In this document: positions 40,479-55,467 of the stretch, piece by piece
How positions within the stretch are numbered: the first letter of the stretch is position 1
How the letters are laid out: each line of letters begins with the position of its first letter
DNA from: Acetobacteraceae bacterium
GTDB lineage: Bacteria; Pseudomonadota; Alphaproteobacteria; Acetobacterales; Acetobacteraceae
Length of the DNA stretch: 64,000 nucleotides
NCBI GenBank assembly: GCA_947475245.1
Contig: CANJLW010000014.1
Location: 1-64,000 of the forward strand
Direction of reading: 5' to 3'
Position numbers and translations under genes: made by a program
The notes under the pieces: model-generated
Database searches by the model: none
Seen by the model: the letters and a program-made list of their open reading frames with translations, nothing else
Told to the model about the DNA's origin: nothing

Positions 40479-43409
40479 ATGGCAAGTCTGTTCACGAGTA
40501 TCCGCGGCCTGTCCAAATGGCGGCTGTTTTTGCTCCTCGTCACGGCCGCCGCGATGCTCGCGACGATCACGTCAGCGCTGACCTATCGCTTCGTCCTGAC
40601 GGAATCGACGGCTTCCCCCGTGCGGATCGCACTGATCGCGCCGTTGTCGGGGCCGTTGAGCGCAACGGGTTCGGCGATGCAGGCGGGCGTCAGACAGGCG
40701 CTGTCGCAACAGCGTAATACGATCGCCGGCCATCCGGTCGAACTGGTGCTGATCGACGAAAGCGCCCCCGACGCCGCCAACCGCGCGGTGGCCGATCCGC
40801 TGATCGTCGGCGTCGTCGGCCCCTATAGCGAGGCCGCCGCCGAACGTGTTCGTCCCGTGCTGTCCGCCGCCGGTATCGCTTCGCTCAGCTTCGCGTCCCC
40901 CGCCGGCGCGGCGGCGCCCGGCTTCTTTTCGATTGTCCCGAAAGCGGACCAGGAAGTGCGGTTCCTCGCGAACTACGTCCGCAACGTGCTGGGAGAGCCG
41001 CTGGTTTCGGTGATCCTGCCCAACCGGCCGGAAGCCGCCGCGCTGGCCGATGCTTTCGACGAAGTGTTGCAACGCTTCGGCACGCGGGTTGTTTATCGCT
41101 GGTCGGTCGCCGATCAAGCGGGGCTTCGGGCCGCGATCGCGGAGATCGCCGACAAGCAGATCGCCGGCAGCGTGCTGGTGCTGGGCGATCCGCTGTTCTC
41201 CGCCCAGGCATTGGCGTCGCTGCGATCGGCGGGCGTTCCGAACCGCGTGGTCGGCCTGCGCGATCTTGCCACGCAATCGTTTGAAACCGCGTTCAAGGCG
41301 GCCTGGACCGGGTCGGGAACACCGGGATCGGGAATGAACGGCACCGTCGCGACGGCGCCGGCCTTGTTCGATACGGCGGGCGCGGCGGCGCAGGAGTTCC
41401 GCACCGCGATCATCGCGCGCGGCGGGGTCGCGCCCGACTGGATTTCGGTTCTGGCGCACGATGCGACGACGCATCTGGCATCGGCCATCGCATCTCTTTC
41501 GGCCGGCGGGCCGATCGACGGGCCGACGCTGCGCAAGCGCATCCCGGCCAATCTGGCGGGCCACAACAGCGCCGAACGAGCCTTGCCCGGTCTGGCCGGA
41601 CCAATCTTCTTCGACGCCAACGCGATTGCCGAACGCGGGCAGCCCGTCGGCATCTATGACGGCATGGAGCTGATTTCCGCGCCGACCCAGCTTTCCCCGA
41701 TCCGCGAGGAAGGCGTGTCGAACTATCTGGAGGAACTGGCCGCCGGGCGGGCGCTGTACGTCAACGATCGGTTCATGTATAAAACCAACGTTGTCTACAC
41801 CGGCGTCCGACCGGAAAAGGTGTTCGACATCAATCCCGACGCCAATACGGTCGATATCGAGTTCCAGGTGTGGTTCCGTTGGCGCGGCGAACTGGACCCG
41901 CAGTCCATCGTCTTCCCCAACGCGTTGACGCCGATCGACATGAGCAAGGCGGAGCGGGAAGGCAAGTCGGGCGACCTGTCCTATCGCGCCTATCGGGTGC
42001 GCGGCCGCTTCTTCATGAACTATTCCAACGCGGCGCATGCCTACGGCACCCAGTTGGTGGAAGTGGCGTTCCGTCACCGCACCCTGGGCGCCAACAATCT
42101 GCTCTACGTGACCGACGTCCTCGGCATGGGGTTGGATAAAGGCTCCGCCCAAGGCGAAAGCGCGGAGAAACCGTCCGGCCTGCTCAACCGCCTGTTCGGC
42201 ACCTTGCCGACCGGAACACTCGCTCGGCAGCTTGCTTCCACCCGTCTGCTGGCCGGTATTTCCGGTTGGCTGGTGGATCGGGCGTGGTTGTCGCAGGAGG
42301 TCACGATTGCCGCCGGCACGGGCGATCCGACCTTTGTCGGCTTCGGCAAACCCGCGCCGCTATTCTCGACGATCGGCCTGGGCGTTGTGCTGAAGCCGGA
42401 CGTGATCGATCTGCAAGGCGCGATTCCGCCGAACTGGATGGTCTACGTGGCGATTTTTGCCGCGTTCGGCACGGTGCTGGCGCATATGCTGGACTGGAAG
42501 GACCGCAGCCACTTCTGGCGGGTGCAGACGCTGCTGCTGCGCATCGTCACCTGGCCGTTGCTGTTGATGTCGGTCTCGGCGCTGGCGCTGGATAACGCGC
42601 AGGACACGCTTTCCCCCAGCGTGGTGCGCACGATCGACATGACGGCGAGCGCGCTGTGGTGGGTGATCGGCGCATGGCTGATGAACATCGTCGTCGAACG
42701 CTTCGTCTGGGTGCCGTTGGAAGCGCGCAGCGAGCGGCGGATTCCGACGGTCTTCCGCATGATCGTGACGCTGATCATCTTCATCCTCGCGTCCTTCGGC
42801 ATTGTCGCGTTCGTGCTGGGTAAAACGATTACCAGCCTGCTCGCGACCTCCGGCATCCTGACCTTGATCGTCGGCCTGGCGGTCCAGTCCAACCTGCGCG
42901 ACGTGTTTTCCGGCATCATGCTGAACCTCGAACGACCGTTCAGGATCGGCGACTATCTGCGGGTTAACCGCAACATCGCGCAGGTCGTCGATATCTCGTG
43001 GCGCACCACGCGGTTGCAGGTGAAGGACGGGCGTATGATCGCGCTGCCGAACGGGCGGCTGTCGGACTCGGAAATCGAAAATCTGAGCGAGACGACGGAA
43101 TACGATGCCGATCTGACGATTGCGGTAGACGCGAATCTGGCGCCCGAAGCAATCATCGCCGCGATACGAGAGGCGGTGGAGGGCGTGGCGATCAAGCACG
43201 AGTTGAAGCGCGTGGGCCTGAAAGAGGTCGTCCGGGTCGGCGACGAATGGGTCGCGACGTATGTCGCCAGTGTCCTGGTCGGCAAATACAACGATATCGC
43301 GAAAATGCGCGAGGCCGGGATGCTCGGAATCTGGAACAATCTGCGGGCGATCGGGGTCAGCTGGGGGCCGGACAAGACCACGGCCGGCGGAGCACGCCCG
43401 ATTGGCTGA
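40479..43409 (+). CDS. Fusion of periplasmic binding domain, Cys-loop-receptor-like domain and MscS channel
   Basis: The 976-residue protein starts with a membrane helix (12-34). A complete type I periplasmic binding fold (about 47-405) follows, of the Leu/Ile/Val receptor class, with RIALIAPLSGPLSATG and VGVVGPYSEAAAERVRPVLS. Residues about 435-560 look like the ligand-binding beta sandwich of Cys-loop (pentameric) receptors: DINPDANTVDIEFQVWFRW, later RVRGRFFMNYSNAA. About four helices follow (653-780). The MscS pore helix and beta domain come last (785-870: TSGILTLIVGLAVQSNLRD, LERPFRIGDYL, ALPNG). This predicts a ligand-controlled small-conductance channel (inference). It lies between the adhesin and its TpsB transporter. 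Confidence 0.88.
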   Translation: MASLFTSIRGLSKWRLFLLLVTAAAMLATITSALTYRFVLTESTASPVRIALIAPLSGPLSATGSAMQAGVRQALSQQRNTIAGHPVELVLIDESAPDAANRAVADPLIVGVVGPYSEAAAERVRPVLSAAGIASLSFASPAGAAAPGFFSIVPKADQEVRFLANYVRNVLGEPLVSVILPNRPEAAALADAFDEVLQRFGTRVVYRWSVADQAGLRAAIAEIADKQIAGSVLVLGDPLFSAQALASLRSAGVPNRVVGLRDLATQSFETAFKAAWTGSGTPGSGMNGTVATAPALFDTAGAAAQEFRTAIIARGGVAPDWISVLAHDATTHLASAIASLSAGGPIDGPTLRKRIPANLAGHNSAERALPGLAGPIFFDANAIAERGQPVGIYDGMELISAPTQLSPIREEGVSNYLEELAAGRALYVNDRFMYKTNVVYTGVRPEKVFDINPDANTVDIEFQVWFRWRGELDPQSIVFPNALTPIDMSKAEREGKSGDLSYRAYRVRGRFFMNYSNAAHAYGTQLVEVAFRHRTLGANNLLYVTDVLGMGLDKGSAQGESAEKPSGLLNRLFGTLPTGTLARQLASTRLLAGISGWLVDRAWLSQEVTIAAGTGDPTFVGFGKPAPLFSTIGLGVVLKPDVIDLQGAIPPNWMVYVAIFAAFGTVLAHMLDWKDRSHFWRVQTLLLRIVTWPLLLMSVSALALDNAQDTLSPSVVRTIDMTASALWWVIGAWLMNIVVERFVWVPLEARSERRIPTVFRMIVTLIIFILASFGIVAFVLGKTITSLLATSGILTLIVGLAVQSNLRDVFSGIMLNLERPFRIGDYLRVNRNIAQVVDISWRTTRLQVKDGRMIALPNGRLSDSEIENLSETTEYDADLTIAVDANLAPEAIIAAIREAVEGVAIKHELKRVGLKEVVRVGDEWVATYVASVLVGKYNDIAKMREAGMLGIWNNLRAIGVSWGPDKTTAGGARPIG

Positions 43410-43449: not shown

Positions 43450-45096
43450 GTGACCCTGTTGCGGGTCATGGCCGTCGCGCTGCCGGCGATCGTCGGCGCG
43501 ACCCTGACGGCGGCGGCGGCGGATAATACGCCGACGCTGCGCGGTCTGGTGTTCGTGCCCGACGACGGTTCCTTCAAACGCAACGGCATCGCTTTGCCCG
43601 CGGGCGCGGCGGTCGATCTGACGCGCGTTACAATCCTGGATCGGGACGCGTTCCGCGCCGACATGCGCGCGCTGATCGGCAAGCCGTTGGCAATCGCGAC
43701 GCTGTCAGAAATCGTGCCGCTGGCGACGAAGGTTTTCGAGGCCGCCGGCCGACCGCTGGTGAACATCACGATCCCTGAACAGGATATCGGCTCCGGCATC
43801 GTTCAGGTCGTCGTGGGTGAGTATCGGGTCGGCAAGGTGACCATCGAAGGCGCCAACCACTTCAGCCCGGAGCTTTACAAGCGCGCGATCGGCGCGGTGC
43901 CGAACGAAACGATCGACATGCCGACCATGTCGGTCGGGCTGCGCCAGTTGAATACCAGCGACTATCGCTCCGTGGAGGTCGGCTTGCAGCCGGGCGGGCA
44001 GAGCGGGACGGTCGATGTGACGTTGCGCGCCACGGAACGCCGGCCGGTGACGGTTTCCCTGGGCTACGACAACGCGGGCAGCACCGGCACCGGTCGCAAC
44101 CAATGGACAGCCGGCGTCGGCGTCGCCAATACCGTCGGCACCCTCGACGATACCCTGTCCTATCAGTTCCTGAGCAGCGACTTCGTCAATCGGCGCCCTT
44201 CGTTGCTGTCGCACAGTCTTTCCTATGCGCTGACCGTGCCGCGCGTCGGCATATTCTCCCTGTCCGGCAACTATTCGACCACGCGCCCGCTGGTGGACAG
44301 CTTCCTGACCAGTCTGGGTCAAAGCACGCAGGTCGGGGCGCGCTTTACGCGCGAGGTGTTTGGGACGGAAGACACGTCTTTCCTGGTCCGCGCCGGTTTC
44401 GATTACAAAAGCACGAACAACGATCTTGCGTTCGGCGGTCAGACCATCGCCAACAGCGTCGGCAGGATCGGTCAGTTCGAACTTGCCGCCATTCTGGGGG
44501 CGGGCGACCGTTGGGGGCGCACGGACGGCAGTGTTTCCGGCATCGTCAGCCCCGGTCGGCTGTTCGGCGGCAACGACGATGCCAGCTTCTCCCGCCTGTC
44601 TCCCACCGCGCGGGCACGCTATGCCTATGTGCGCGCGGAGGCGACACGTTCGACGAATTTGCCCGCCAGCTTCGTCTGGTGGACCAAGGCCACGGCACAG
44701 TTCGCCGGTCAGGGACTGCTGGCGAGCGAACAACTGAACGGCGGTGGCGTTGCGAGCGCGCGGGGCTATCCGACCAGCACCGTGCGGGGCGACGGCGGAC
44801 TGATGGTCAGCAACGAGCTTCGCTTTCCGGGGTTCGGCCTGACCGGACTCGCGGGGCGCGATCTGATGGATCGGTTCCAGCCCTATCTGTTTCTGGACTA
44901 TGCGGCCGTATCCGCGCATCGCGCCGCCGGAACACGATCGGAGGACGGAACCTTGACCAGCTTTGGCCCCGGCGTTCGCATCATTGTCGACCGCTACGTC
45001 TCCCTGGGTCTCGATACCGGCGTGCAGCTTCGCACCGCCGGCGGACAGCGGTATCCGGGCCAGTTCCTGGACGTCTCGCTGACCGTTCGCTACTGA
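43450..45096 (+). CDS. TpsB-type outer membrane transporter (ShlB/FhaC family)
   Basis: From the GTG at 43450 the product has about 548 residues: a signal peptide (VMAVALPAIVGATLTAAAA), a POTRA part (with GIVQVVVGEYRVGKVTIEGANHFSPELY) and a 16-strand barrel. The barrel carries the ASARGYPTSTVRGDGG loop motif that plugs the pore in this family, and ends in VSLTVRY with a terminal aromatic. Its job is to export the giant adhesin encoded two genes upstream. The ATG at 43468 and a TTG at 43459 are other possible starts. The open frame extends upstream into the channel gene but is not coding there. Confidence 0.88.
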   Translation: MTLLRVMAVALPAIVGATLTAAAADNTPTLRGLVFVPDDGSFKRNGIALPAGAAVDLTRVTILDRDAFRADMRALIGKPLAIATLSEIVPLATKVFEAAGRPLVNITIPEQDIGSGIVQVVVGEYRVGKVTIEGANHFSPELYKRAIGAVPNETIDMPTMSVGLRQLNTSDYRSVEVGLQPGGQSGTVDVTLRATERRPVTVSLGYDNAGSTGTGRNQWTAGVGVANTVGTLDDTLSYQFLSSDFVNRRPSLLSHSLSYALTVPRVGIFSLSGNYSTTRPLVDSFLTSLGQSTQVGARFTREVFGTEDTSFLVRAGFDYKSTNNDLAFGGQTIANSVGRIGQFELAAILGAGDRWGRTDGSVSGIVSPGRLFGGNDDASFSRLSPTARARYAYVRAEATRSTNLPASFVWWTKATAQFAGQGLLASEQLNGGGVASARGYPTSTVRGDGGLMVSNELRFPGFGLTGLAGRDLMDRFQPYLFLDYAAVSAHRAAGTRSEDGTLTSFGPGVRIIVDRYVSLGLDTGVQLRTAGGQRYPGQFLDVSLTVRY

Positions 45097-45186: not shown

Positions 45187-46383
45187 ATGAGTTGGCTCAA
45201 CCGTCTGTGGGACCGCGTCAGCGCCGAACTCTTTGTCGCGCCCAAGGCAGCGGCCATCCTGCCCGCGGCCGCGCCCGTTGTCTGGCTGCTGGGCAAGACA
45301 GGCGCGGGCAAGACATCGATCGTCGCGGCCCTGACCGGCGACACCCGCGCGGAAATCGGACCGGGGTTTCGGCCCTGCACGCGCACCGCCGCGTTTTACG
45401 ATCTGCCGCCCGAAGCCCCTCTGCTGCGCTTTCTGGACACGCGCGGGTTGGAAGAAAGCGATTACGACGCCGATGCCGACCTGACGTGGAGCGAGGGGCA
45501 ATCCCATCTGCTGCTGGCGGTGATGCGCGTGAACGACCTGGCGCAGGACGCCGTCGTTCGCGTGCTGAAAGCGGTTCGGCACCGGCATCCCGGATGGGGC
45601 CTGATCGTCGCGCAAACCGCGCTGCACACGCTGTATCCGCCGAACGTCCCGCATCCGCCGGCCTATCCGTACACCGGCGGCGCGGAGGACGAGATCAACC
45701 CGGCCCTGCCGCATCCGCTGCGCCAGGCGCTGGCCTATCAACGTCGGCAATTGGACAGCCTCCCCGGGCCGCGCCCCATTTTTGTGCCGTTGGATTTCAC
45801 CGACGCGGACGACCTCTATCCACCGGCGGCGTTCGGGATCGATGCATTGCTGACCGCCATGGCGACGGCCGGGGCGGACGCCGCCGCCGCGCTGCGTCGG
45901 GTGGCGATCGCGCGCGACATCGACCGCGTGCATGCCGGCTCGCAACGGCTTGTGCTGGGCTGCGCCACCGCCGCGGCGGTTTCCGGCGCGGTGCCGGTGC
46001 CGGCGGTCGGTATCGGCGGCGTCGCCTCGGCGGTCGCGGTCATGCTGCGCGGCATGGGGGAGCGCTACGGCGTGCAGTGGACCCGCGCCAATTTCGCGCG
46101 CTTTACCGGCGCGATCGGCATTGGCGGTCTGGCCTGGCTGGGTGTGCGTTTCGGCGTCGTGGAACTCGCCAAGTTGGTGCCCGTGGCCGGCAGCATTCTG
46201 GGCGGCACATTGAACGCCGCCGCCGCGTTTTCAATTGTCTACGGTACCGCGGAAGCCGCTCGGGTCTGGCTGCGTTACCAAAGCACCGGCACGGTCGCCC
46301 CCACTGATGAAGTACGCCGAGCATTTTTGACGGGACTGAGGGAGGGGCTGCGACGGCACCGGGATGAAAGGCGGCGGACGTGA
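45187..46383 (+). CDS. GTPase with C-terminal DUF697 membrane domain
   Basis: The 398-residue product has a P-loop GKTGAGKT at residues 36-43 and a G3 motif DTRGL at 84-88. The usual G4 NKxD is not seen (VAQTALHT stands in its place), so guanine specificity is uncertain. The region from about 245 to 360 is rich in Gly and Ala with hydrophobic helices (GCATAAAVSGAVPVPAVGIGGVAS, then LVPVAGSILGGTLNAAAAFS), which is the DUF697/YcjF pattern. Such proteins sit at the inner membrane. Its stop overlaps the start of the next GTPase gene by 3 bases. Confidence 0.85.
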   Translation: MSWLNRLWDRVSAELFVAPKAAAILPAAAPVVWLLGKTGAGKTSIVAALTGDTRAEIGPGFRPCTRTAAFYDLPPEAPLLRFLDTRGLEESDYDADADLTWSEGQSHLLLAVMRVNDLAQDAVVRVLKAVRHRHPGWGLIVAQTALHTLYPPNVPHPPAYPYTGGAEDEINPALPHPLRQALAYQRRQLDSLPGPRPIFVPLDFTDADDLYPPAAFGIDALLTAMATAGADAAAALRRVAIARDIDRVHAGSQRLVLGCATAAAVSGAVPVPAVGIGGVASAVAVMLRGMGERYGVQWTRANFARFTGAIGIGGLAWLGVRFGVVELAKLVPVAGSILGGTLNAAAAFSIVYGTAEAARVWLRYQSTGTVAPTDEVRRAFLTGLREGLRRHRDERRRT

Positions 46384-47921
46384 CGGAACGCGGCCTCGTC
46401 AAACGCTATTGGCCGGAAGCGATCCTTGCCGCGGCGCTCGCTCTGCCCTGGATTTCCCTGATCGGCCTCGGCCTGGTTTGGCTTTGGCAGCAAAATGCCC
46501 TGCTGCCGTGGACCATCGGCGCGGCCGTGCTGGGGCTTGCCGCGATACCGCTGTTGCCCGCGCGCGGGCGGGAAACTGCGGCAGCCGCGAAGGCCGCCGT
46601 TGCGGCGATGGTGCCGGACGTGCCGGATTGGGATCGCAACGCGAAGACAGCCATGGTCGCCGTACAGACCATCGCGGAAACCGCAACGCCGTTGACGTTC
46701 GACGATCTGGATCAGGCGTTGAACCTGGGTCAGCGCACGATTGAAGCGGTCGCCGCCGTCTACCATCCCGACCGCCCGCATGCCTGGGCGCATTTTACCC
46801 TGCCGGAAGCGTTGCTGCTGACCGAACACCTCGCCGCCACCCTGCGGCGGGAGACCTTGCGCAGCTTTCCCGGCGCGCGGGTGTTCCGCCTCGATCACGT
46901 CTTGCGGATCAGAGAGGGGCATCATCGCTACGGGTCCGCGGTGCGCTGGGTGACCAGGGTCGGATGGCGCGTGACGCGGATCGGTCGCGTGGTGCTGAGC
47001 CCGGCCTCCGCCCTGGCCGCGGAAGCAAAAGCCCTGGTCCTCGACCGCACCAGCACCCTCCTCTCCGAACGCGCTCGGCGGCACGCGACGCGGCTTTTGG
47101 TGATCGAGCTGGGGCGCACCGCGATCGAGCTTTATTCGGGCCGATTGGTGCTGTCGGCGACGGAATTGTCGGATGCGGCGGCGGCGGAAGCGGTGGGCGC
47201 GACGGGAGCGAGCGACGACGCGCCGCTGCGGGTCATGCTGGCGGGTGCGATCAACGCCGGGAAGTCCAGCACGTTGAATGCCCTGGCGGGGGAAATTCGC
47301 GGCGAGGTCAGCCCCCTGCCCGGACGGAACGATGTCGTCGAACATATCGTCCGCCAGGACGGCAAGCCGGTTCTGGTGCTGGTCGATCCCCCGGGGATCG
47401 GACCGGACGCGGCGCGCAACGCGCGGCTGGAGACTCTGGCCCATCGGGCCGACATGGTGCTGTGGGTGATCTCCGCCACCCAACCCGCGCGCCAAAGCGA
47501 CGTTGCCGCGCTGCGTGCCTTGCGTTCGAGCTTTGCCGCTGAACTCGATCGTCGTCCTCCGCCCATTCTCGTCGTGCTGACCCATATCGATCAGTTGCGG
47601 CCGGCGGCGGAATGGAACCCGCCATACAATGTCGTTACCCCGCGAGGCCGGAAGGAAACCATGATCGCCGAGGCGCTGCGCGAGGTCGCGCGGGAATTGG
47701 ACATGCCCGAGGACGCCGTGGTTCCCGTCGCGCTCGCTCCCGGTCGCGATACTTACAATATCGATATGCTTTGGGGCAGTATCGCGCAGCGGCTGGCCGA
47801 AAGTCGCTCTCGGCAGTTAGAGCGTATTCGGGCCGGGCGGTCCGGTTTGTCCTTGAGAGAGGTCGCGGGGCAATTGTCCGGGTCGGTGCGCCTGATCACG
47901 CGACTGGTCACGAAAGGCTAG
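46380..47921 (+). CDS. Membrane-anchored GTPase (dynamin/Era-like)
   Basis: The 513-residue protein begins at a GTG inside the stop of the previous gene. Two hydrophobic helices (about 13-35 and 41-59) anchor it, then a long helical region with basic residues leads to a late GTPase domain. The P-loop GAINAGKSS is at 289-297, G3 DPPGIG at 336-341 and G4 THID at 401-404. The DUF697 GTPase next to it lacks this complete motif set, so the two may work as a pair. The order helix-hairpin then GTPase fits a membrane remodelling role (inference). The next gene starts 7 bases later. Confidence 0.85.
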   Translation: MTERGLVKRYWPEAILAAALALPWISLIGLGLVWLWQQNALLPWTIGAAVLGLAAIPLLPARGRETAAAAKAAVAAMVPDVPDWDRNAKTAMVAVQTIAETATPLTFDDLDQALNLGQRTIEAVAAVYHPDRPHAWAHFTLPEALLLTEHLAATLRRETLRSFPGARVFRLDHVLRIREGHHRYGSAVRWVTRVGWRVTRIGRVVLSPASALAAEAKALVLDRTSTLLSERARRHATRLLVIELGRTAIELYSGRLVLSATELSDAAAAEAVGATGASDDAPLRVMLAGAINAGKSSTLNALAGEIRGEVSPLPGRNDVVEHIVRQDGKPVLVLVDPPGIGPDAARNARLETLAHRADMVLWVISATQPARQSDVAALRALRSSFAAELDRRPPPILVVLTHIDQLRPAAEWNPPYNVVTPRGRKETMIAEALREVARELDMPEDAVVPVALAPGRDTYNIDMLWGSIAQRLAESRSRQLERIRAGRSGLSLREVAGQLSGSVRLITRLVTKG

Positions 47922-47928
47922 CGCGCGC

Positions 47929-49518
47929 ATGCGGCTGCTTTCACTGGCGTTTGCTCCGGAGCGCGCACGCCCCTTCAGCTTCGGCCTGATCTGTCTCGCG
48001 CTGGCCGGCGGCTATGGGTTGGAAAACCTGATCCTGGGTTCGACCGTTCATTCCCGGCAACTCGGCGAGGAACGCACGGATCTGGCGGTTGCCCTGCTGT
48101 TCGTTTCCGCCGGCTACATTTCCGCGATGATCGGCCTTGCGTGGCGCGGGATCGTCAATCTGGAGCGCGCGGCGCTGCGTGGGCGACGTCGATTGATCGC
48201 AACGCTGATGGATCGCGACCTCGCGACGATGGAACGTGTCGGCCGCGATCGGGTGTTGCACGGGCTGACGGCTGCGCCGCGGGAAATGACCGACAACGCG
48301 CCCATCCTGTTGCGGGTCACGGAGGCGACCTGCTTCGTGGTCGGCATGGTGCTGGTTCTGGCTGTCCTCTCCTGGCACCTGTTGTTGATCATGGGTTCCG
48401 TCCTGGTGGTCGCCGGTCTGTCGCTGGCGGCCAATCATGAAGCCGTGATGCGCGCCCACTCGGCCGCCGAGGCGATCGAGAACCGTAATCGCGCCGACTG
48501 CGTCGCGTTGGTCGACGGCTTCAAGGAACTGAAACTGCATGCCGAACGCCGGATCGCGTTCCTGCAGGCACTGCGCGCCCGCATGGATGTGGCTCGGCGC
48601 GCCCGCGCGCGCGCCGATCAACGGTTTGTCCTGGGGTTCATGTTGCAGACCGCCGCTGTCATCGGTGCCAGCGCGTCGTGTATCTTTCTGCTCCCGAGCC
48701 TGCTGCACGACACCAGCCATGCGATGTTCATGGCCACGGCCCTGTTGATGGCCAATATCCCGCTGGGGACGGTCAGGGACATCCCGATCCTGGCGCGCAC
48801 CGATGCCGAGGTTGTCGGGATGGAAGCGCTGTTCGCGGCGTTGGGAGAAGCGAAACCAGCGGAACCTCCGCCCCCCGAGGAGCCGTTTCGATCCATTGCG
48901 CTGACCGAGGCATCGTATCGCTATATCGGAGAGGGCGGGGAGGCCGGGTTCACGCTGCGACCCGCCACGTTGGAATTCGCGGCGGGATCGATCATCTTCA
49001 TCGTCGGCGGCAATGGCAGCGGCAAGTCGACGGTGATGAAGTTGCTCGCCGGGCTGTATCGACCGACCGGCGGGCAGGTTGTCGTGAACGGGCGGCCGAT
49101 CGGGCTTTCGGCGCTGCGCGAACTGTCCACGGCGATCTTTGCCGATCACCACGTATTCGACCGTCTTTACGGTGTCCCCGATCCCGATCCCGCGGCGATC
49201 CAGTCCGCCCTGGAAGACATGGGGATAGCCGGACAGACGCGCTTCGAGGACGGGCGCTTTACCCGGCGCGATCTGTCGAGCGGGCAGCGTAAGCGCCTGG
49301 CCTGGGTTGCCGGCATGGTTGAAAATCGTCCCCTCGTGCTGTTGGACGAATGGGCCGCCGACCAGGACCCGGAATTCCGCGACCGGTTTTATCGCGTGCT
49401 GCTGCCCGCGCTGCGCGCGTCGGGTAAGGCGGTCGTGGCCGTCAGTCACGACGATCGCTATTTCGACCTCGCCGACAGGATCGTCCGCATGGACTATGGC
49501 CGGGTGGTCTCCTCATGA
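47929..49518 (+). CDS. Half ABC transporter, SyrD/YojI-like (1 of 4)
   Basis: The 529-residue permease-ATPase fusion has about six helices in residues 1-290, then Walker A GGNGSGKST at 360-368. FADHHVF takes the place of the Q-loop, LSSGQRKR is the signature (449 on), Walker B LVLLDEW is at 468-474 and the switch SHDDRYF is near 506. The extended LDEWAADQDPEFR is typical of the cyclic peptide and siderophore exporter group (SyrD, PvdE, YojI). A cargo peptide gene is not apparent. It overlaps the next ABC gene by 4 bases (ATGA), so the two may form a heterodimer. Confidence 0.9.
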   Translation: MRLLSLAFAPERARPFSFGLICLALAGGYGLENLILGSTVHSRQLGEERTDLAVALLFVSAGYISAMIGLAWRGIVNLERAALRGRRRLIATLMDRDLATMERVGRDRVLHGLTAAPREMTDNAPILLRVTEATCFVVGMVLVLAVLSWHLLLIMGSVLVVAGLSLAANHEAVMRAHSAAEAIENRNRADCVALVDGFKELKLHAERRIAFLQALRARMDVARRARARADQRFVLGFMLQTAAVIGASASCIFLLPSLLHDTSHAMFMATALLMANIPLGTVRDIPILARTDAEVVGMEALFAALGEAKPAEPPPPEEPFRSIALTEASYRYIGEGGEAGFTLRPATLEFAAGSIIFIVGGNGSGKSTVMKLLAGLYRPTGGQVVVNGRPIGLSALRELSTAIFADHHVFDRLYGVPDPDPAAIQSALEDMGIAGQTRFEDGRFTRRDLSSGQRKRLAWVAGMVENRPLVLLDEWAADQDPEFRDRFYRVLLPALRASGKAVVAVSHDDRYFDLADRIVRMDYGRVVSS

Positions 49519-51125
49519 GCCTGCGTCCGGCCTCCGGCACGATTGGGCTGATGCTAAGGGAGGGCAATGTCGACGCCTGGGTGGTGTTCGTCCTGACCTT
49601 CGGCGCCGGGCTGAGCCAGGCGCTGACCATTGCCTTGATCGGATTGGGCGCGACGGAAATAGCCGGCGAGGCCATTCCGTGGCGCGAGGCGGTCGTGTTC
49701 GTGGCGATGTTCAAGGTCATGCTGATCCTGGTGGGTCTGGCGCAGCTTCGGGGACGGCAATTTGCCGAACGCGTGACGAACGCGGCGATTTTCCGCATCG
49801 CCGAGCGGATGCCGGCAAGCGAGTTGGACCGGTTGGAGCGATTGGGCGGGCGGGCCTTGGTTGCCGAGATGACGGTTCGGGCGACGGCCCTGGGTTCGGC
49901 GACGCACGCAGCGTTTGGCGTTGTCTACTGTGCCGGACAAATCATCGGCGCGCTGGGCGCGTTGTGCTTCTTCGCGCCCTTCGTCGCGCTGCTGGTGACC
50001 GCGGCGGGCGGGGCTTGTTTTCTGCTCCAACATCGCATGCGCCTGACCGCCGATGTCTGGGGCGGGCACGCGGACCGCCTGGAGTCACGGTTCACCGCCT
50101 CGGCCCGGGAGTTCGTCGACGGCTACCGCGAGCTTCAGGCGGGGCGGGCGCGTTTCGTCGATCTGGTCGAACATTACCTGTTGCCCGCGGCGCGGGCAGC
50201 CGCGTCCGCTCGGCGCCCGCTGGCACGGGTCAGTGCCTTGTCGCTTGGTGCCGCGTCCGGCAGTTGGTCCGTCATGGCGTTCGCCGCCGCATTCGTCGCC
50301 CCGGCGCTGGGCTTCGATACCGGGATTACGCTTGCCATTTTCGTGACGTCGCTGGGATTCGATGCGTTTCTGGGCATCGTGACATATGTCCCGGTGCTTC
50401 GCCTGGGACACGACTCCGTCGCCTGGTTTGAGCGGACCGGCAACGAACTGGCCGACGGACAGGGATCGTTGACGCCAGGCGCGCCGCAAACGCGGGGCTT
50501 TACCCGGATCGAGTTGCGCAAGGTCGTCTATGCCTATGCCGTGAGCGACGCCCAACCGCTGGGTCCGATCGATCTGACCCTGACCGCAGGGGAGATCGTG
50601 CTGGTGACCGGCGGAAACGGGAGCGGCAAGTCGACATTGATGAAGCTGCTGGCGGGGCTTTACGTGCCGATGGGCGGGGACGTCATGGTGGACCGGACGA
50701 TTTGGCACCCCGACGATTACCGGTCGTTGTTTTCCGCCGTGTTCACCGACTTTCACGTCTTCGATATCCAACCGACGGAGCTTCTGGCCGATCCGGAACG
50801 GATCGCAGGCCTGATCGAGGTTTGGGGGTTGAAGGGAAAGGTCACGCTCGACGCAAACGGTTTTTCGTCGACCCAGCTTTCCACCGGCCAACGCAAGCGG
50901 TTGGCGCTGATCCAGGCGCTGTTGGAGGATCGACCCATCTTGCTGTTGGACGAATGGACGGCGGATCAGGACCCGGAATTCCGCGCCTGGTTTTTCGACA
51001 GCCTGCTGCCGGAACTGAAAGCGCGGGGGCGCACCGTCGTGGCGGTGACGCATGACGATCGGTATTTCGACCGTGGCGATCGCGTCATTCGGATGGCGGA
51101 CGGTCAGGTCGTATCAAGCCGGTGA
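49515..51125 (+). CDS. Half ABC transporter, SyrD/YojI-like (2 of 4)
   Basis: The 536-residue paralogue of the preceding gene has a transmembrane part (1-310) and an ATPase with Walker A GGNGSGKST at 366-374, TDFHVF in the Q-loop region, LSTGQRKR from 455, Walker B ILLLDE at 475-480 and THDDRYF near 512. All catalytic motifs are intact. The start ATG overlaps the stop of the first half transporter. A gap of 169 bases follows before the SPFH gene. Confidence 0.9.
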   Translation: MSLRPASGTIGLMLREGNVDAWVVFVLTFGAGLSQALTIALIGLGATEIAGEAIPWREAVVFVAMFKVMLILVGLAQLRGRQFAERVTNAAIFRIAERMPASELDRLERLGGRALVAEMTVRATALGSATHAAFGVVYCAGQIIGALGALCFFAPFVALLVTAAGGACFLLQHRMRLTADVWGGHADRLESRFTASAREFVDGYRELQAGRARFVDLVEHYLLPAARAAASARRPLARVSALSLGAASGSWSVMAFAAAFVAPALGFDTGITLAIFVTSLGFDAFLGIVTYVPVLRLGHDSVAWFERTGNELADGQGSLTPGAPQTRGFTRIELRKVVYAYAVSDAQPLGPIDLTLTAGEIVLVTGGNGSGKSTLMKLLAGLYVPMGGDVMVDRTIWHPDDYRSLFSAVFTDFHVFDIQPTELLADPERIAGLIEVWGLKGKVTLDANGFSSTQLSTGQRKRLALIQALLEDRPILLLDEWTADQDPEFRAWFFDSLLPELKARGRTVVAVTHDDRYFDRGDRVIRMADGQVVSSR

Positions 51126-51294
51126 GCGATGCCATTCGGCCTGAATCGTTGATTCTGATTGGCTTTATACCGTTGCTTACGAACGTCGTTGTCGGTAATC
51201 GTGGGGCTGTCGTCAGACCGCATCAGTACGGTGGAAACCCCGGCTGTGGAGGCCGCGCGGGTGCCCGGACGGTGCCGCGTCATGAGGTGTTGGA

Positions 51295-52197
51295 ATGAGT
51301 GCGTCTTTGTTCTCGCGCCGAAGGGACGACGGTCTGGAAGACGAACTTCCGGAAGAACCTGCCCGTGGCGGGCGGCTTATGCGCACCATGCGGGCGGGCG
51401 GCAAGGCGGCGGCTTTCGCTTTGGTCACCGTCAGTCTGGCGGCGTTCATCCTGTGGCAGCGCGTTGTTTACGTGGTCCCCGCCGGCGGTGCCGGCGTGCT
51501 GTATCATACGCTGTCGGGCGGCACGATCACCGACTATGTCTACGGCGAAGGGATCCAACTGATCTTTCCGTGGGATCGGTTCACAATCTACGATACCCGC
51601 GTGCAGGTAGTGTTGAGCGAGTTTACCGCGCTGACTAACAAGGGTCTGCCGATTCAACTGCGCCTCGCGATCCGGTATCATCCCGAATACGATACGGTTG
51701 GCTTGCTGCACCAGCGCGTTGGGCCGGACTACGTGGCGAAGATCGTCCAACCCCAGGTTGAATCCGTTCTGCGCCGCTACATCGGTAAGGAAGAGCCGGA
51801 AGCCATCTACACCAACAAGGAAGGCGTGCTGTCGTCGATCATTTCCCGCGCGATCGAGGAAACCTCGGAAAAATTCGTAACGATCGAGGATATTATCATT
51901 CGGGAGGTCTCTCTGCCCGAGCAGATGCGGGAGGCGATCACCACCAAGCTGGCGTTCCAGCAGCAGGCCGAAGCGTATGAGTACCGTCTGGCCGCGGAAC
52001 TGCGTGAAGCGGAACGCAAGCGGATCGAGGCGGAAGGCACCGCGGCCGCGCAAAAGATCATCGCGCGCGGATTGACGCAGGATCTGCTGCGCTGGGAAGC
52101 GATCCGGGTTGAGGCCGAATTGGCGAAATCCAATAACTCCAAGATGATCATTATGAACGGCGTCGATGCAGGGCGTTTCAACCTCAATGTCCCCTGA
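51295..52197 (+). CDS. SPFH (band 7/prohibitin-like) membrane protein
   Basis: The 300-residue protein has a cytoplasmic Arg/Glu-rich head and one membrane helix (about 37-53). The SPFH domain follows (about 55-210, with VPAGGAGVLYHTLSGG and IIREVSLPEQMREAI). A coiled coil with EAERKRIEAEGTAAAQKII ends the protein. Such proteins form rings that organise membrane patches and often control proteases or transporters. The ATG at 51295 follows GAGGTGTTGGA. The last codons overlap the start of the next gene, a binding protein, which is an unusual partner. Confidence 0.9.
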   Translation: MSASLFSRRRDDGLEDELPEEPARGGRLMRTMRAGGKAAAFALVTVSLAAFILWQRVVYVVPAGGAGVLYHTLSGGTITDYVYGEGIQLIFPWDRFTIYDTRVQVVLSEFTALTNKGLPIQLRLAIRYHPEYDTVGLLHQRVGPDYVAKIVQPQVESVLRRYIGKEEPEAIYTNKEGVLSSIISRAIEETSEKFVTIEDIIIREVSLPEQMREAITTKLAFQQQAEAYEYRLAAELREAERKRIEAEGTAAAQKIIARGLTQDLLRWEAIRVEAELAKSNNSKMIIMNGVDAGRFNLNVP

Positions 52198-53335
52198 CGG
52201 CATCGACCGCAGAACGGTATTGAGGGCCGCCATCGGCGGGGCGCTGACGCTTCGGAACGGCGCTTCCCGGGCCGAGGATAAGCCGCCCGAGTACGTCATC
52301 GGCCTTGTCGGTCAGGGGCCGGTCGGCGATGCGATGCGCGAGGGCGCCCTGTTGGCCGTCGAAGTCATCAACCAGGCCGGCGGGCTTGCGGGGCGCAAGC
52401 TGCGTTTGCGGGCGGAGACATTGAATCCGGCAGACAAGGAAATCCGGGCACAGGCGATCAAGATTTCCGGCGCGCTGATGAAGGAGAAAGACCTGATCGC
52501 CGTCATCGGCCACGATGAAATGAGTGACGCGCTGCCCGCCGCCATCGCCTATCGCCGTCGGAATGTCCTGTTCATCGCGCCGACCATCACAATCTCGGAC
52601 CTGTCGCGACACGGGCTGGAAAACGTCTTCGCCACCATCCCCGACAACACCGATATCGCCACCCAAACCGCTCGGCTGGCCTTTGATATCGGGTTGCGCC
52701 GAGCGGTTGTGTTGCGGGATCGGAGTATGGAGGCGCTGGAGATCGGGTTGGCGTTCCGCGACGAAGCCGCGGTACTGGGCATCACGATCATCAACGAACG
52801 TTCGTTCCGGGCGGAAACCGCCAATGCGCGCGATGTGCTGGCGGGTCTTCAGGGTTTGCGCGTCGATCACTTGTTGATCGCCACCCCGCTGGACCTTGCG
52901 GTGCGACTGGTCCGGCAAGCCGGCGCGATGGGGTTGGGGCTGACTTCGGTGCTGCCGCAATTCACGGACCCCGATGCGTTGCGGCCTCAACTGGCGAAAA
53001 TCAACGGCCGGATTTTGTTGCCGGTGTTACGAAACCGCGTATCTCCCAGCATTGTTCAGGCGAACTGGGCGAAAAGCTTCGAAACGCGGTTCCAGAAACA
53101 GGCGTCGGACTGGGCTATGCAGGGGGCCGACGCGGTCGGACTGCTCGCCCATGCGATCGGACGCAGCGGCACGGTGGACGCCGACGAGTTGATCAGTCTT
53201 CTGCGGCTTGAACTGGCCTACACAGGGATTGGCGGGCGGATATCGTTCCGCCGGAACGGGCGCATCTATACGCGGCTGCTGGCATTCGCGTCCGTGCGCC
53301 CGGACGAGGTCGTTTACTACATGCCCGGAGCCTGA
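52187..53335 (+). CDS. Periplasmic ligand-binding protein, type I fold (Leu/Ile/Val-like)
   Basis: The ATG at 52187 gives a 382-residue protein with a twin-arginine-like leader DRRTVLRAAIGGALTL, then YVIGLVGQGPVGDAMREGALLAVEVINQAGGLAG, the usual opening of type I substrate-binding proteins. It is similar in fold to the receptor part of the MscS fusion in the same cluster. No matching branched-chain amino acid permease is nearby, so it may serve as a ligand sensor and not in uptake (inference). An ATG at 52166 is an alternative start. It overlaps the SPFH gene by 11 bases. Confidence 0.85.
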   Translation: MSPDGIDRRTVLRAAIGGALTLRNGASRAEDKPPEYVIGLVGQGPVGDAMREGALLAVEVINQAGGLAGRKLRLRAETLNPADKEIRAQAIKISGALMKEKDLIAVIGHDEMSDALPAAIAYRRRNVLFIAPTITISDLSRHGLENVFATIPDNTDIATQTARLAFDIGLRRAVVLRDRSMEALEIGLAFRDEAAVLGITIINERSFRAETANARDVLAGLQGLRVDHLLIATPLDLAVRLVRQAGAMGLGLTSVLPQFTDPDALRPQLAKINGRILLPVLRNRVSPSIVQANWAKSFETRFQKQASDWAMQGADAVGLLAHAIGRSGTVDADELISLLRLELAYTGIGGRISFRRNGRIYTRLLAFASVRPDEVVYYMPGA

Positions 53336-53339
53336 CGAG

Positions 53340-54440
53340 ATGGCCATGCTCCGCCTTGTCATTGTGCTGTTCATCGGGCTGTTCTGCCGGATCGACGCGG
53401 CTTCGGCGCAGGACGGGCGCGACTATGTGCGCGTCATCGGTCGACCGGAAACCTTGGCCTATGCCGCCGATGTTGCGGAGGCATTGGTCCGGAACGCTCA
53501 GCGCAAATATCCGCAACTGGAACAATCATCGGACGAAGGCGCGATCCGGACGTTTTGCACGACGGTGCGCGACACGCCGGACCTGATGCTGTTGCCGCAA
53601 GCGATCGAGGACGCGCGGCCGGTTGTCTGTCCGAGCCTTGAGCCGTTGTTGAATTTGCCGATCGGGCGTCAGGTCTTCGTCGTATACAGCGCGCCCGACG
53701 CGCCGGAGTTTCGGTTAACGCGGGAGATTCTGTTCCGGGCCATGGCGCGCGAACTGCCGCGCCGCGATTCAGAGGGCGCGCTGGCATCGTTCGAGCGTAA
53801 TCCAAACCTGCGCTGGTCGGAGATCGATCCGAGCCTGCCGGACGTTCCCATTCGTTTGTTGTTGCCGCCGCGCCGTTCGGTGCAGTGGCTTGCGATCGAG
53901 GACCTGGTGATGCGGCCCGGCTGCGCGTCGATCCCGGCAATCGCCGAGTTGGCCTTGATCGATCAGCAGATGGCCAGTCAACGCTGCCTTGCTCGGCGTA
54001 CCGACTTTTCCCTGAACTATGCCGATCCGTCCGCGGCATCCGGTTCTCAGGCGCGTATTCCCAAGGGCACCGAGTTGAGCCTGAATGAACTGCGCTTTGT
54101 GCCGGAAGGTATGGCGCTGGTGGCGGTCGAGGGGACAATACCCGACCGCGCCGCTATTGAGAGCGGACACTATCGCATGGCGCGTCAGGTCGTGGCGGTC
54201 GTCAAGCGCAACCGGCTGGATGCGATCCCCAGTTTGCGGGATTACCTGCAAGAGATGACCTCTCCCGCCGCGGCGGGACCGGGTGGCTATCTGCAACGCA
54301 GCGGTCTTGATCCACTGTCTGAAACAGTATTGCGGCAGAGCGCCACGCAGGCGCGTTTTGCGATGCCGGAAGCGGTGCGAAGATTACAGGCGAAGACGGT
54401 CGGCGATGCCGCGAAGCCGGATGCGGGTTTGGCGCGTTAG
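53340..54440 (+). CDS. Exported substrate-binding-like protein (PstS/type II fold)
   Basis: The 366-residue protein starts at the ATG at 53340, 4 bases after the previous stop. It has a signal peptide ending ASAQDG, then DYVRVIGRPETLAYAADVAEAL and EGAIRTFC, which resemble PstS-type phosphate-binding proteins at the amino end. The ligand loops are altered and a further conserved-looking domain follows (KGTELSLNELRFVPEGMALVAVEG). The identity of the ligand cannot be read. The TrkA or Pst genes that would accompany a transporter are absent, so it belongs functionally to this cluster. Confidence 0.65.
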   Translation: MAMLRLVIVLFIGLFCRIDAASAQDGRDYVRVIGRPETLAYAADVAEALVRNAQRKYPQLEQSSDEGAIRTFCTTVRDTPDLMLLPQAIEDARPVVCPSLEPLLNLPIGRQVFVVYSAPDAPEFRLTREILFRAMARELPRRDSEGALASFERNPNLRWSEIDPSLPDVPIRLLLPPRRSVQWLAIEDLVMRPGCASIPAIAELALIDQQMASQRCLARRTDFSLNYADPSAASGSQARIPKGTELSLNELRFVPEGMALVAVEGTIPDRAAIESGHYRMARQVVAVVKRNRLDAIPSLRDYLQEMTSPAAAGPGGYLQRSGLDPLSETVLRQSATQARFAMPEAVRRLQAKTVGDAAKPDAGLAR

Positions 54441-54447
54441 CGCGAAT

Positions 54448-54621
54448 TCAATCGCGTGGCCGTGAGTCCGAGGCCAGGACAAGGAGGAGTCCGATCGGCG
54501 GCGTCAGCGCCAGACCGGCGAAAAAATAGCCCCATGGGCCGAATTTCCTGCGCCGTCCCAAAGCCCCAACGATAATGGCCAGGGCGACATAAATCACGGC
54601 CGCTTCTCCGTATCCCGCCAT
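54448..54621 (-). CDS. 57-residue membrane protein antisense in the cluster
   Basis: From the ATG at 54621, on the strand opposite the cluster, a 57-codon frame reads MAGYGEAAVIYVALAIIVGA, then a basic loop LGRRRKFGPWGYF, then FAGLALTPPIGLLLVLAS. This gives two membrane helices joined by a positive loop. A GGGAGAG ribosome binding site lies just before the ATG. The pattern is that of a real small membrane protein. Function unknown. Confidence 0.6.
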   Translation of the reverse strand: MAGYGEAAVIYVALAIIVGALGRRRKFGPWGYFFAGLALTPPIGLLLVLASDSRPRD

Positions 54622-54865
54622 GGTACTCTCCCACTGGGCCGGGTGGTCCGGCTTGCCACCAAATCTGTATCAAAATCAGTGTATCCGGCACAAGGTCTTG
54701 CCAGCATCGATGATGAGCAAATTATCACATGCGGGTTGTTGCGAGTTATGCGGCAATGCGATACGAAGCGATATCGTAGTATAATGCGTTAAAAAACTCG
54801 CACCATGCAGTTGTGGGCAGACCGCAGCGATGGGATTTGCGCGGCGCAAAGGAATGGAGTTCACC
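54622..54865. promoter_or_regulatory. Divergent promoter region inside the cluster
   Basis: This AT-rich gap lies between the 57-codon gene (minus) and the DUF697 gene (plus). A perfect TATAAT occurs at 54780-54785 on the plus strand, but no convincing -35 lies at the right spacing. It probably starts a second transcript for the DUF697 gene and ABC transporters 3 and 4. Confidence 0.4.
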
Positions 54866-55432
54866 ATGGATCAAGACAATCCCGCCCACACCGCGGGCGA
54901 AGCAAACGTCGGGACTTCGGAAGCCGTGGACGTATCTCCGGATGTCGGTTCCGTCGACAGCATCATCAAGAACCACGTGATCTCCGCCATGGGCATCGGC
55001 CTGATCCCCATTCCGGGCGTCGATATTGCCGGTGTGGTCGCGGTGCAGTTGCGCATGGTGCAAAAGCTGAGCGAAGTCTATGGCGTCGCCTTCAAGGAAA
55101 ATGTCGCGAAGGCCGCGGTTCTGTCGCTCGCGGGCGGCATTACGCCGGTTGCGCTCGCCGGCGGTTTGGTCAGCGCGCTGAAGATCGTTCCGGGCCTGGG
55201 CAGCATTGCCGGCGCGGCGGGCGTATCCGTTCTGGCCGGCGCGATGACTTATGCGATCGGTCGCGTGTTCCAGCAGCATCTCGACAGCGGCGGCACGCTG
55301 CTCGACTTCGATCCGTCGAAGGTGCGCGACGTGTTGAAGCGGGAATTTGAAGCCGGCAAGAAGCTGGTTAAATCCTGGCGCCCGGGCAAGCCCGCCGAAG
55401 CCACCGAAGCACCGGCACAAACAACCGCCTGA
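54866..55432 (+). CDS. Stand-alone DUF697-like membrane protein
   Basis: The 188-residue protein starts at the ATG at 54866, preceded by GGAG at the right distance. After an acidic head comes VDSIIKNHVISAMGIGLIPIPGVDIAGVVAVQLRMVQKLSEVYG, then Gly/Ala-rich helices (ALKIVPGLGSIAGAAGVSVLAGAMTYAIG). This is the DUF697 pattern without a GTPase. A C-terminal tail is basic then Ala/Pro-rich. It matches the membrane domain of the GTPase at 45187-46383 and may complete or compete with it. ABC transporter 3 begins 35 bases later. Confidence 0.8.
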   Translation: MDQDNPAHTAGEANVGTSEAVDVSPDVGSVDSIIKNHVISAMGIGLIPIPGVDIAGVVAVQLRMVQKLSEVYGVAFKENVAKAAVLSLAGGITPVALAGGLVSALKIVPGLGSIAGAAGVSVLAGAMTYAIGRVFQQHLDSGGTLLDFDPSKVRDVLKREFEAGKKLVKSWRPGKPAEATEAPAQTTA

Positions 55433-55467
55433 TCCGTCGCGCCACGCACGGCGGTGGAGCCTGAGCC

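Follow-up and report, generated by a model that had tools for sequence, protein, structure and literature searches.

What is the ligand-binding half of a Cys-loop receptor doing in front of the pore of a mechanosensitive channel? The question is raised by a single gene in a 64,000-nucleotide stretch of DNA, called here the window, from an Acetobacteraceae bacterium (GenBank assembly GCA_947475245.1, contig CANJLW010000014.1, positions 1 to 64,000 of the forward strand). The predicted product joins, in this order, a type I periplasmic binding protein (PBP) domain, a ligand-binding domain (LBD) of the kind found in pentameric ligand-gated ion channels (pLGICs), and an MscS-type channel. We consider it probable that the protein works as a receptor-channel, with the ligand-sensing half taken from a PBP-fused pLGIC and standing on an MscS-type pore, under the control of periplasmic ligands and tied to the export of giant proteins. 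Computation established the domains and their order, the homology of the PBP-LBD half, the pore helix, the conservation of the family and the selection acting on it, its genomic context, and the loss, in its main clade, of residues thought to couple LBD and pore. The three-part architecture had been proposed in a preliminary description made from the sequence alone; that the protein belongs to a conserved family, shares ancestry with pLGICs and tends to be encoded near secretion genes goes beyond that description.

Three modules and the junction between them

Both ends of the protein were recognized directly by domain profiles. Pfam placed Peripla_BP_6 (PF13458) at residues 47-380 (E 2.2e-25) and MS_channel_2nd at residues 806-870 (E 1.9e-16), each above its cut-off (PF00924 scored 60.4 bits against a cut-off of 20.2), and residues 427-634, scanned alone, matched nothing in Pfam or NCBIfam. 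An AlphaFold2 (AF2) model of the full length (976 aa; mean pLDDT 84.9) contains a PBP at 48-407, sandwich strands at 432-640, five helices at 651-818, and an MscS vestibule. The PBP has the two-lobed type I fold: Foldseek returned LivJ/LivK-type proteins (TMt up to 0.84 among the matches listed), and a phmmer search of the Protein Data Bank (PDB) found 4n0q (E 4.3e-7), in agreement with the type I binding protein that the preliminary description had placed at 47-405.

The middle region is, by its predicted structure, a Cys-loop-type sandwich. Residues 401-660 were modeled with AF2 from an alignment of the window's protein and 49 relatives; mean pLDDT was 77.4, block means were at least 93 over about 441-530, and confidence was low in the N-terminal linker and two loops. 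Searched against the PDB with Foldseek, this model gave 1106 matches at E ≤ 1e-3, the best 50 of which were all acetylcholine-binding proteins (AChBPs). The top match had E 2.7e-10 and probability 1.00, and TM-scores were 0.59-0.63 when normalised to the target and about 0.5 when normalised to the query. The sandwich strands of the full-length model are 432-452, 457-469, 493-497, 500-512, 525-533, 541-545, 597-610 and 628-640. The original proposal of a Cys-loop-like LBD at 435-560, made from pattern alone, was right about the fold and is supported by the homology described below, but it was not right about the limits: the domain runs from about 426 to 645, and an end at 560 stops short of the last two strands and of loop C between them.

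YnaI was the best sequence match of residues 652-976 by phmmer (E 3.5e-17), with an alignment that is gap-free across the pore helix. The five predicted helices lie between the periplasmic LBD and the cytoplasmic MscS domain, a number that fits this topology, and two of them are additions ahead of the canonical three of MscS. Structure prediction, which had been suggested as a check, thus returned both the sandwich and the MscS pore helix. The intact pore helix (784-818, with L796 and L800) expected within an MscS region at 653-870 was borne out, but the region itself proved longer, the beta and alpha/beta domains reaching residue 957 in the full-length model. No cyclic-nucleotide-binding domain was matched by Pfam in the fusion protein at E ≤ 1. 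MscS domains were found at two places in the window's genome, the fusion gene being one of them.

The ancestry of the ligand-binding half emerged from a second type of match. A search of 200 family genomes with the whole protein returned a PBP-LBD protein ending in hydrophobic helices, which aligned over residues 25-562 only (27% identity, E 1.8e-32). Further relatives of this kind, which carry four transmembrane helices (4TM), came from the order and genus (loci L033, L035 and L036) and from a profile search (L127), and all five PBP-LBD-4TM proteins have a canonical Pro-loop (e.g., YPFD). In hhalign, a three-row LBD profile from MscS-type proteins aligned with a four-row profile from 4TM proteins at E 1.8e-20 (probability 99.3) over 201 columns, and in the multiple alignment the similarity extends through loop C up to the membrane boundary. 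Searches of the PDB with the 4TM kind reached known pLGICs: the one relative searched, P0006, matched a GABA-A receptor chimera over LBD and transmembrane (TM) region (E 4.6e-7), and the LBD profile of four of them matched GLIC (E 0.0026). One PBP-LBD-4TM gene (L033:1822-3729) has an in-frame TAG before its open piece and is possibly a pseudogene or a sequencing error.

On these alignments, the PBP-LBD half is homologous to PBP-LBD-4TM proteins of pLGIC type. Because the LBD similarity runs up to the membrane boundary, the junction lies at the contact between LBD and membrane, with a different pore behind it; and because the homologous 4TM proteins match GLIC and GABA-A receptors, the 4-TM pore appears to have been exchanged for an MscS pore at that junction. 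Where a pLGIC has a four-helix membrane domain with an M2 pore, the fusion protein has the MscS pore in its place.

Passages of an earlier survey (Tasneem et al. 2004, PMC549065) describe two features as nearly universal and possibly related to gating: the Cys-loop motif aPaD and, where the LBD ends, a basic residue. We followed both through an alignment of 64 LBDs: 50 MscS-type, three divergent MscS-type, five PBP-4TM, and six without a PBP that were taken as plain 4TM (four hydrophobic stretches follow the LBD in three of these six, one or three in the others). The aPaD Asp is present in 5/5 PBP-4TM, 6/6 plain-4TM and 1/3 divergent LBDs, and in 2/50 of the MscS-type, 46 of which have Gly in that column. 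Read at the aligned columns, P.D occurs in all 11 4TM-type LBDs versus 0/50 MscS-type (Pro alone in 14), and the window's protein reads HAYG. A regular-expression match to P.D in all three divergent LBDs was discarded as out of register (aligned Pro 0/3, Asp 1/3). The Arg of the pre-M1 column is found in 5/5 PBP-4TM, 6/6 plain-4TM, 3/3 divergent and 2/50 MscS-type LBDs; the window's protein has Pro there, with Lys one residue earlier. The strand-2 Trp and the loop-C GxP are present in 64/64. The main MscS-linked clade, then, has lost the aPaD motif, and its basic residue is either displaced or lost as well.

An LBD tree unites the 50 MscS-type rows (support 99/98) and joins them to the three divergent rows (87/66, not starred). 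A single change between 4TM and MscS suffices on this tree. One pore swap is the simplest reading, not a proved one, because long branches meet at that node (a program warning).

The loss of the aPaD motif, which is thought to couple LBD to pore, is what a different explanation would expect: that the protein is a mechanosensitive valve whose PBP and LBD are structural or tethering parts, docking the channel to a secretion machine, an adhesin or the wall, with no ligand gating. YnaI, the best-matching MscS relative, functions without such domains, and a docking role would suit the secretion-gene neighborhood described below. However, a mean pairwise identity of 0.50 in the LBD core and an invariant loop-C GxP exceed the needs of a spacer, and the whole PBP fold is kept. 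We therefore regard a valve of this kind as unlikely.

Family and genomic neighborhood

The possibility that only the window's genus has the fusion (an earlier single-sequence scan had found no match) was rejected by a pattern scan of one genome for each of 84,980 species, which used a three-row alignment and two short peptide patterns. The scan gave 107 candidates and 88 encoding stretches, of which 80 were kept; because it relied on two short patterns, the fusion counts are lower bounds. LBD and MscS parts share a single frame in 78 of the 80 loci, and in the other two (L110 and L114) the contig stops within the frame, ahead of the MscS part. A filter on completeness and unknown bases passed 70 of the 78, and thinning to <85% mutual identity left 49. 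With duplicates removed, all loci together hold at least 86 distinct PBP+LBD+MscS frames, the window's included, alongside five PBP+LBD+4TM, six LBD without PBP, three PBP+LBD, and one LBD+MscS. By a simple filter, 76 of the 86 are near full length; the other ten are cut, have a partial PBP, or are divergent. Three of the 86 (L131, L135 and L136) constitute a very divergent second PBP-LBD-MscS kind within the window's family; L131 and L136 are nearly identical, so that the three divergent LBDs count as two cases. At L115 and L116, the PBP is incomplete in the fusion frame, which is directly preceded by another frame of the same cluster (a split gene or a sequencing error).

Carriers of the three-part fusion belong mostly to proteobacterial classes, with the addition of Desulfamplus. 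Record titles name Azospirillum (20), Magnetococcales, Magnetospirillum, Desulfamplus, Rhodospirillales, Thiotrichales, other gammaproteobacteria, Gallionellaceae, Sphaerotilus, and others. The two nearest relatives from the window's GTDB genus are 46 and 48% identical to its protein over residues 2-964; over their whole frames they do not differ from proteins of two records titled Rhodopila (L041 and L040), which places the window's bacterium near Rhodopila. All nine matches in plasmid records are from Azospirillum, and the sole annotated one is named ABC transporter substrate-binding protein. A draw of 398 genomes of the phylum gave an LBD match at E ≤ 1e-5 in 41; many of the weaker matches, in frames of 700-790 aa, may be of the 4TM kind. 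Names of magnetotactic lineages (Magnetococcales, Magnetospirillum, Desulfamplus) appear on many carriers (e.g., L042, L044, L045, L047, L079, L081 and L093), which may be a matter of sampling.

Comparison of two close fusion relatives gave dN 0.092 and dS 0.73, indicative of purifying selection. An assembly artefact or a single recent accident, in favor of which we found no point, is already refuted: chance or assembly fusion can be dismissed because distinct frames number at least 86, from many genera, and because dN is so far below dS.

Conservation is uneven along the protein. Among 50 proteins, mean pairwise identity is 0.55 in the pore and beta domain, 0.50 in the LBD core, 0.44 in helices 651-755, 0.34 in the PBP, and 0.23 in the C-terminal part. 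Because LBD and pore are conserved and the PBP is variable, it looks as if the ligand differs among species. G792 and G799 are invariant (50/50); position 796 is Met, Leu or Phe in 49/50, and position 800 is Leu, Met, Ile or Phe in 50/50. By alignment, we take these two positions to correspond to the gate positions of YnaI and MscS.

Such a pore argues against a non-conducting receptor, which would pass a ligand signal through the MscS-derived membrane part to a partner (e.g., GTPases or a secretion ATPase) with no ion flow. The poorly conserved C-terminal part and the GTPase genes that come next in the window would suit this explanation. However, the glycines and the hydrophobic gate positions have been kept, and the window's GTPases are mostly missing from related loci (GTP1 in one of 80, GTP2 in none); we judge a receptor without ion flow to be very improbable. 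With TpsA in four of the 80 loci and TpsB in two, the window's neighbors were also rejected as a family-wide context.

The context of most fusion loci is type I secretion. Secretion profiles were built from genes of the same fusion loci, and their families were named by Pfam and NCBIfam on L055, L058 and L090. A complete type I set (ABC exporter, HlyD and a TolC-type protein) lies within 6 kb of the fusion in 50 of 78 loci, in 37 of the 44 loci with >5.5 kb on both sides, and in 30 of the 58 outside Azospirillum. The window's ABC gene is matched in 49/80 loci, mostly through the gene cluster of the type I exporter. Directly 3' of the fusion gene, five loci (L076, L080, L086, L089 and L105) have 138-190 aa frames of one cluster, and that of L076 matches TerB.

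A raw count put a giant frame upstream in 33 of the 71 loci with >1.5 kb of upstream sequence. Twelve of the 33 are Arg-rich, lie beside hlyD and are probably wrong frames; one more is Arg-rich (L053), those of L076 and L089 consist almost entirely of unknown bases, and that of L090 resembles alanyl-tRNA synthetase by eye only. A composition filter that we set ourselves gave 14 loci in which a giant frame ends just upstream of the fusion. Three that resemble two-partner secretion (TPS) proteins fail this filter on Arg: L038 and L040, which match the window's TpsA, and L104, which has YDG domains. Pfam found adhesin-type domains at L055 and L111, YDG at L104, and one Cadherin_4 in the large upstream gene of L058; at E 0.001 it found none at L047, L095 and L112, and it gave no clear adhesin domain in a large gene downstream in L079.

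Together, 59/78 loci have a complete type I set or a giant frame that passes the filter. Of the remaining 19, some are cut by contig ends and some have one or two secretion genes; L092 and L097 have neither feature in spite of ample flank. The TpsA/TpsB pair of the window is another secretion route at the same place, perhaps following the same logic.

Proposed ligand control

In the receptor-channel that we favor, a small molecule in the periplasm would bind the PBP, the LBD or both. Binding would move the LBD, and this movement, by itself or in concert with membrane tension, would bias the MscS pore through a rebuilt junction between LBD and TM region. The resulting flux of ions or solutes could then bear on the export or display of a giant surface protein encoded nearby, the candidate partners being TpsA/TpsB in the window and the type I secretion genes of most relatives whose flanks are long enough.

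A number of observations weigh against such a channel. A pLGIC ring has five subunits and MscS has seven, which means that one symmetry or the other must change; and, with the classical coupling motif lost, ligand control would need a new coupling path. The change at the LBD end is itself incomplete, as MscS-type LBDs partly keep the basic residue (Lys at the Arg column in 7/50 and one column before in 21/50; Arg anywhere in 634-644 in 20/50). The LBD loops around 551-580 and 611-620 have low confidence in the full-length model. A profile search with the middle region, suggested in the preliminary description, gave a divided answer: in sequence searches of the PDB, MscS-type LBD profiles of 3 and of 50 rows retrieved no pLGIC, their best matches being an aldolase (E 0.85) and an Lrs14-like protein (E 0.79), but a 3-row profile did align with that of the 4TM relatives in hhalign. 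The LBD assignment consequently rests on structure and on the 4TM intermediates. Among these, the Neur_chan_memb matches of the 4TM relatives are weak and below cut-off (E 0.0096-0.066). Of the six plain-4TM frames, none of the four scanned with Pfam has a Neur_chan domain, and of the two searched further one matches GLIC over LBD and TM region (E 0.0011) and the other nothing. Lastly, the loci with a complete type I set, 50 in number, include 20 that are titled Azospirillum and are not independent, and HlyD, TolC-type and TpsB genes were found at 0/5 PBP-LBD-4TM and 0/3 divergent MscS loci within the fetched 10-18 kb (generic ABC matches occurred at one of these eight), in a control that is small and in which some fetched stretches end near the gene.

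A bolder version of the favored reading, which we offer tentatively but as a serious possibility, is a separate class of receptor-channel in which a Cys-loop LBD was re-coupled from a 4-TM to an MscS pore once, in the proteobacteria. Such a channel would be chemo-mechanical, answering to both ligand and tension, and would act as a sensor of giant-adhesin secretion. The conflict between five and seven subunits would be solved either by the first heptameric ring of a Cys-loop-type LBD or by a non-heptameric MscS pore.

Each module is already known; what is new is the Cys-loop LBD on an MscS pore as a conserved family. We found no report of this combination among the open-access papers listed, a set that lacks most subscription journals and that for some searches comprised the first 20 of more papers. 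Bacterial PBP-I-fused acetylcholine-receptor-type ligand-gated ion channels (ART-LGICs, or pLGICs) appear in passages of the 2004 survey with forms from M. magnetotacticum and B. japonicum, so that the PBP-LBD-4TM architecture was already described from alphaproteobacteria; LBD plus 4-TM pore is given there as the core preserved through all the domain shuffling found (Tasneem et al. 2004, PMC549065). Like these proteins, the fusion has a PBP-I followed by a Cys-loop-type LBD, and the relatives found here are homologous over both. They keep the 4-TM pore, aPaD and the pre-M1 Arg, whereas the fusion has an MscS pore, no aPaD and a changed Arg column. DeCLIC also stacks an accessory periplasmic domain on a pLGIC LBD, but its N-terminal domain (NTD) lobes have another fold and its pore is a normal pLGIC pore (PMC12664993, PMC9897478).

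With AChBP, its best Foldseek match, the LBD of the fusion shares a fold present without a 4-TM pore; AChBP is soluble and has no pore at all. With MscS and YnaI, the fusion shares the pore helix, the beta domain and the alpha/beta vestibule. YnaI has five membrane helices, and we know of no YnaI or MscS protein with a PBP and a pLGIC-type LBD outside the membrane. Bacterial cyclic-nucleotide-gated (bCNG) channels, which combine an MscS pore with a cytoplasmic, C-terminal cyclic-nucleotide domain, are a precedent for a ligand-controlled MscS-type pore. The bCNG sensor has an unrelated fold, however, and that of the fusion is N-terminal, predicted to be periplasmic, and derived from a pLGIC.

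A conserved family in which the LBD no longer goes with the 4-TM pore shows that the two are modules that nature can separate, and the results suggest that nature has swapped the pore of a neurotransmitter-type receptor. As the same PBP-LBD half stands on two unrelated pores and aPaD was lost with the 4-TM pore, LBD-to-pore coupling becomes testable by natural comparison. If true, the favored reading would add periplasmic receptor control to the MscS family, and it may connect the sensing of small molecules with the secretion of surface proteins in Azospirillum, magnetotactic bacteria and others.

The gene and its neighbors in the window

Table 1. Features of the fusion gene and of the genes around it (positions in the window)
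Feature	Positions	Strand	Basis or remark
Fusion gene, PBP - pLGIC-type LBD - MscS	40479..43409	+	Single open frame, 976 aa
N-terminal membrane helix, residues 13-40	40515..40598	+	Helix in model; putative membrane insertion, from hydrophobic sequence
Type I PBP domain, LivJ/LivK-like, residues 47-400	40617..41678	+	Pfam, Foldseek, phmmer
Cys-loop/pLGIC-type LBD beta sandwich (predicted), residues 426-645	41754..42413	+	AF2, Foldseek, hhalign
Cys-loop/Pro-loop position, residues 512-525	42012..42053	+	aPaD motif replaced, HAYG at 520-523; LBD alignment
Loop C between last two strands, residues 615-630	42321..42368	+	GxP in 64/64 aligned LBDs
Pre-TM1 site, residues 639-641	42393..42401	+	KPD in window; conserved Arg of 4TM-type relatives is column 640
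Four predicted membrane helices ahead of pore helix, residues 651-672, 678-710, 713-751, 757-780	42429..42818	+	Full-length model
MscS pore helix TM3, residues 784-818, gate positions L796 and L800	42828..42932	+	Model, phmmer alignment, conservation
MscS beta-domain match, residues 806-870	42894..43088	+	Pfam
C-terminal alpha/beta vestibule domain, residues 889-957	43143..43349	+	Full-length model
Giant exoprotein TpsA, TPS secretion domain and six MBG_2 stretches, 2589 aa	32632..40401	+	77 bases upstream of fusion
TpsB outer-membrane transporter (ShlB, POTRA_2)	43468..45096	+	Probable start, from signal-peptide-like sequence; listed open reading frame opens at 43261
GTPase (MMR_HSR1; DUF697 below cut-off)	45187..46383	+	Domain scan
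GTPase (MMR_HSR1, Dynamin_N)	46380..47921	+	Domain scan
ABC exporter, closest to cyclic-peptide-export and related exporters (below curated cut-offs)	47929..49518	+	Domain scan

The fusion gene lies between the genes of the TpsA/TpsB pair (Table 1). The two GTPase genes (45187-47921) overlap, sit after TpsB, and are absent from the general neighborhood of the family. Four ABC exporter genes occupy 47929-58673 in two pairs (47929-49518 with 49515-51125, and 55468-57081 with 57078-58673), the first of which (47929-51125) is closest to cyclic-peptide-type exporters. Between the pairs lie genes for a stand-alone Peripla_BP_6 protein (52166-53335) and a PBP_like_2 protein (53208-54440). The ABC pairs, these PBP genes and the fusion channel may form a wider system. 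At L041, from the same genus, two matches to the window's ABC gene lie ~6 kb from the fusion gene on the opposite strand.

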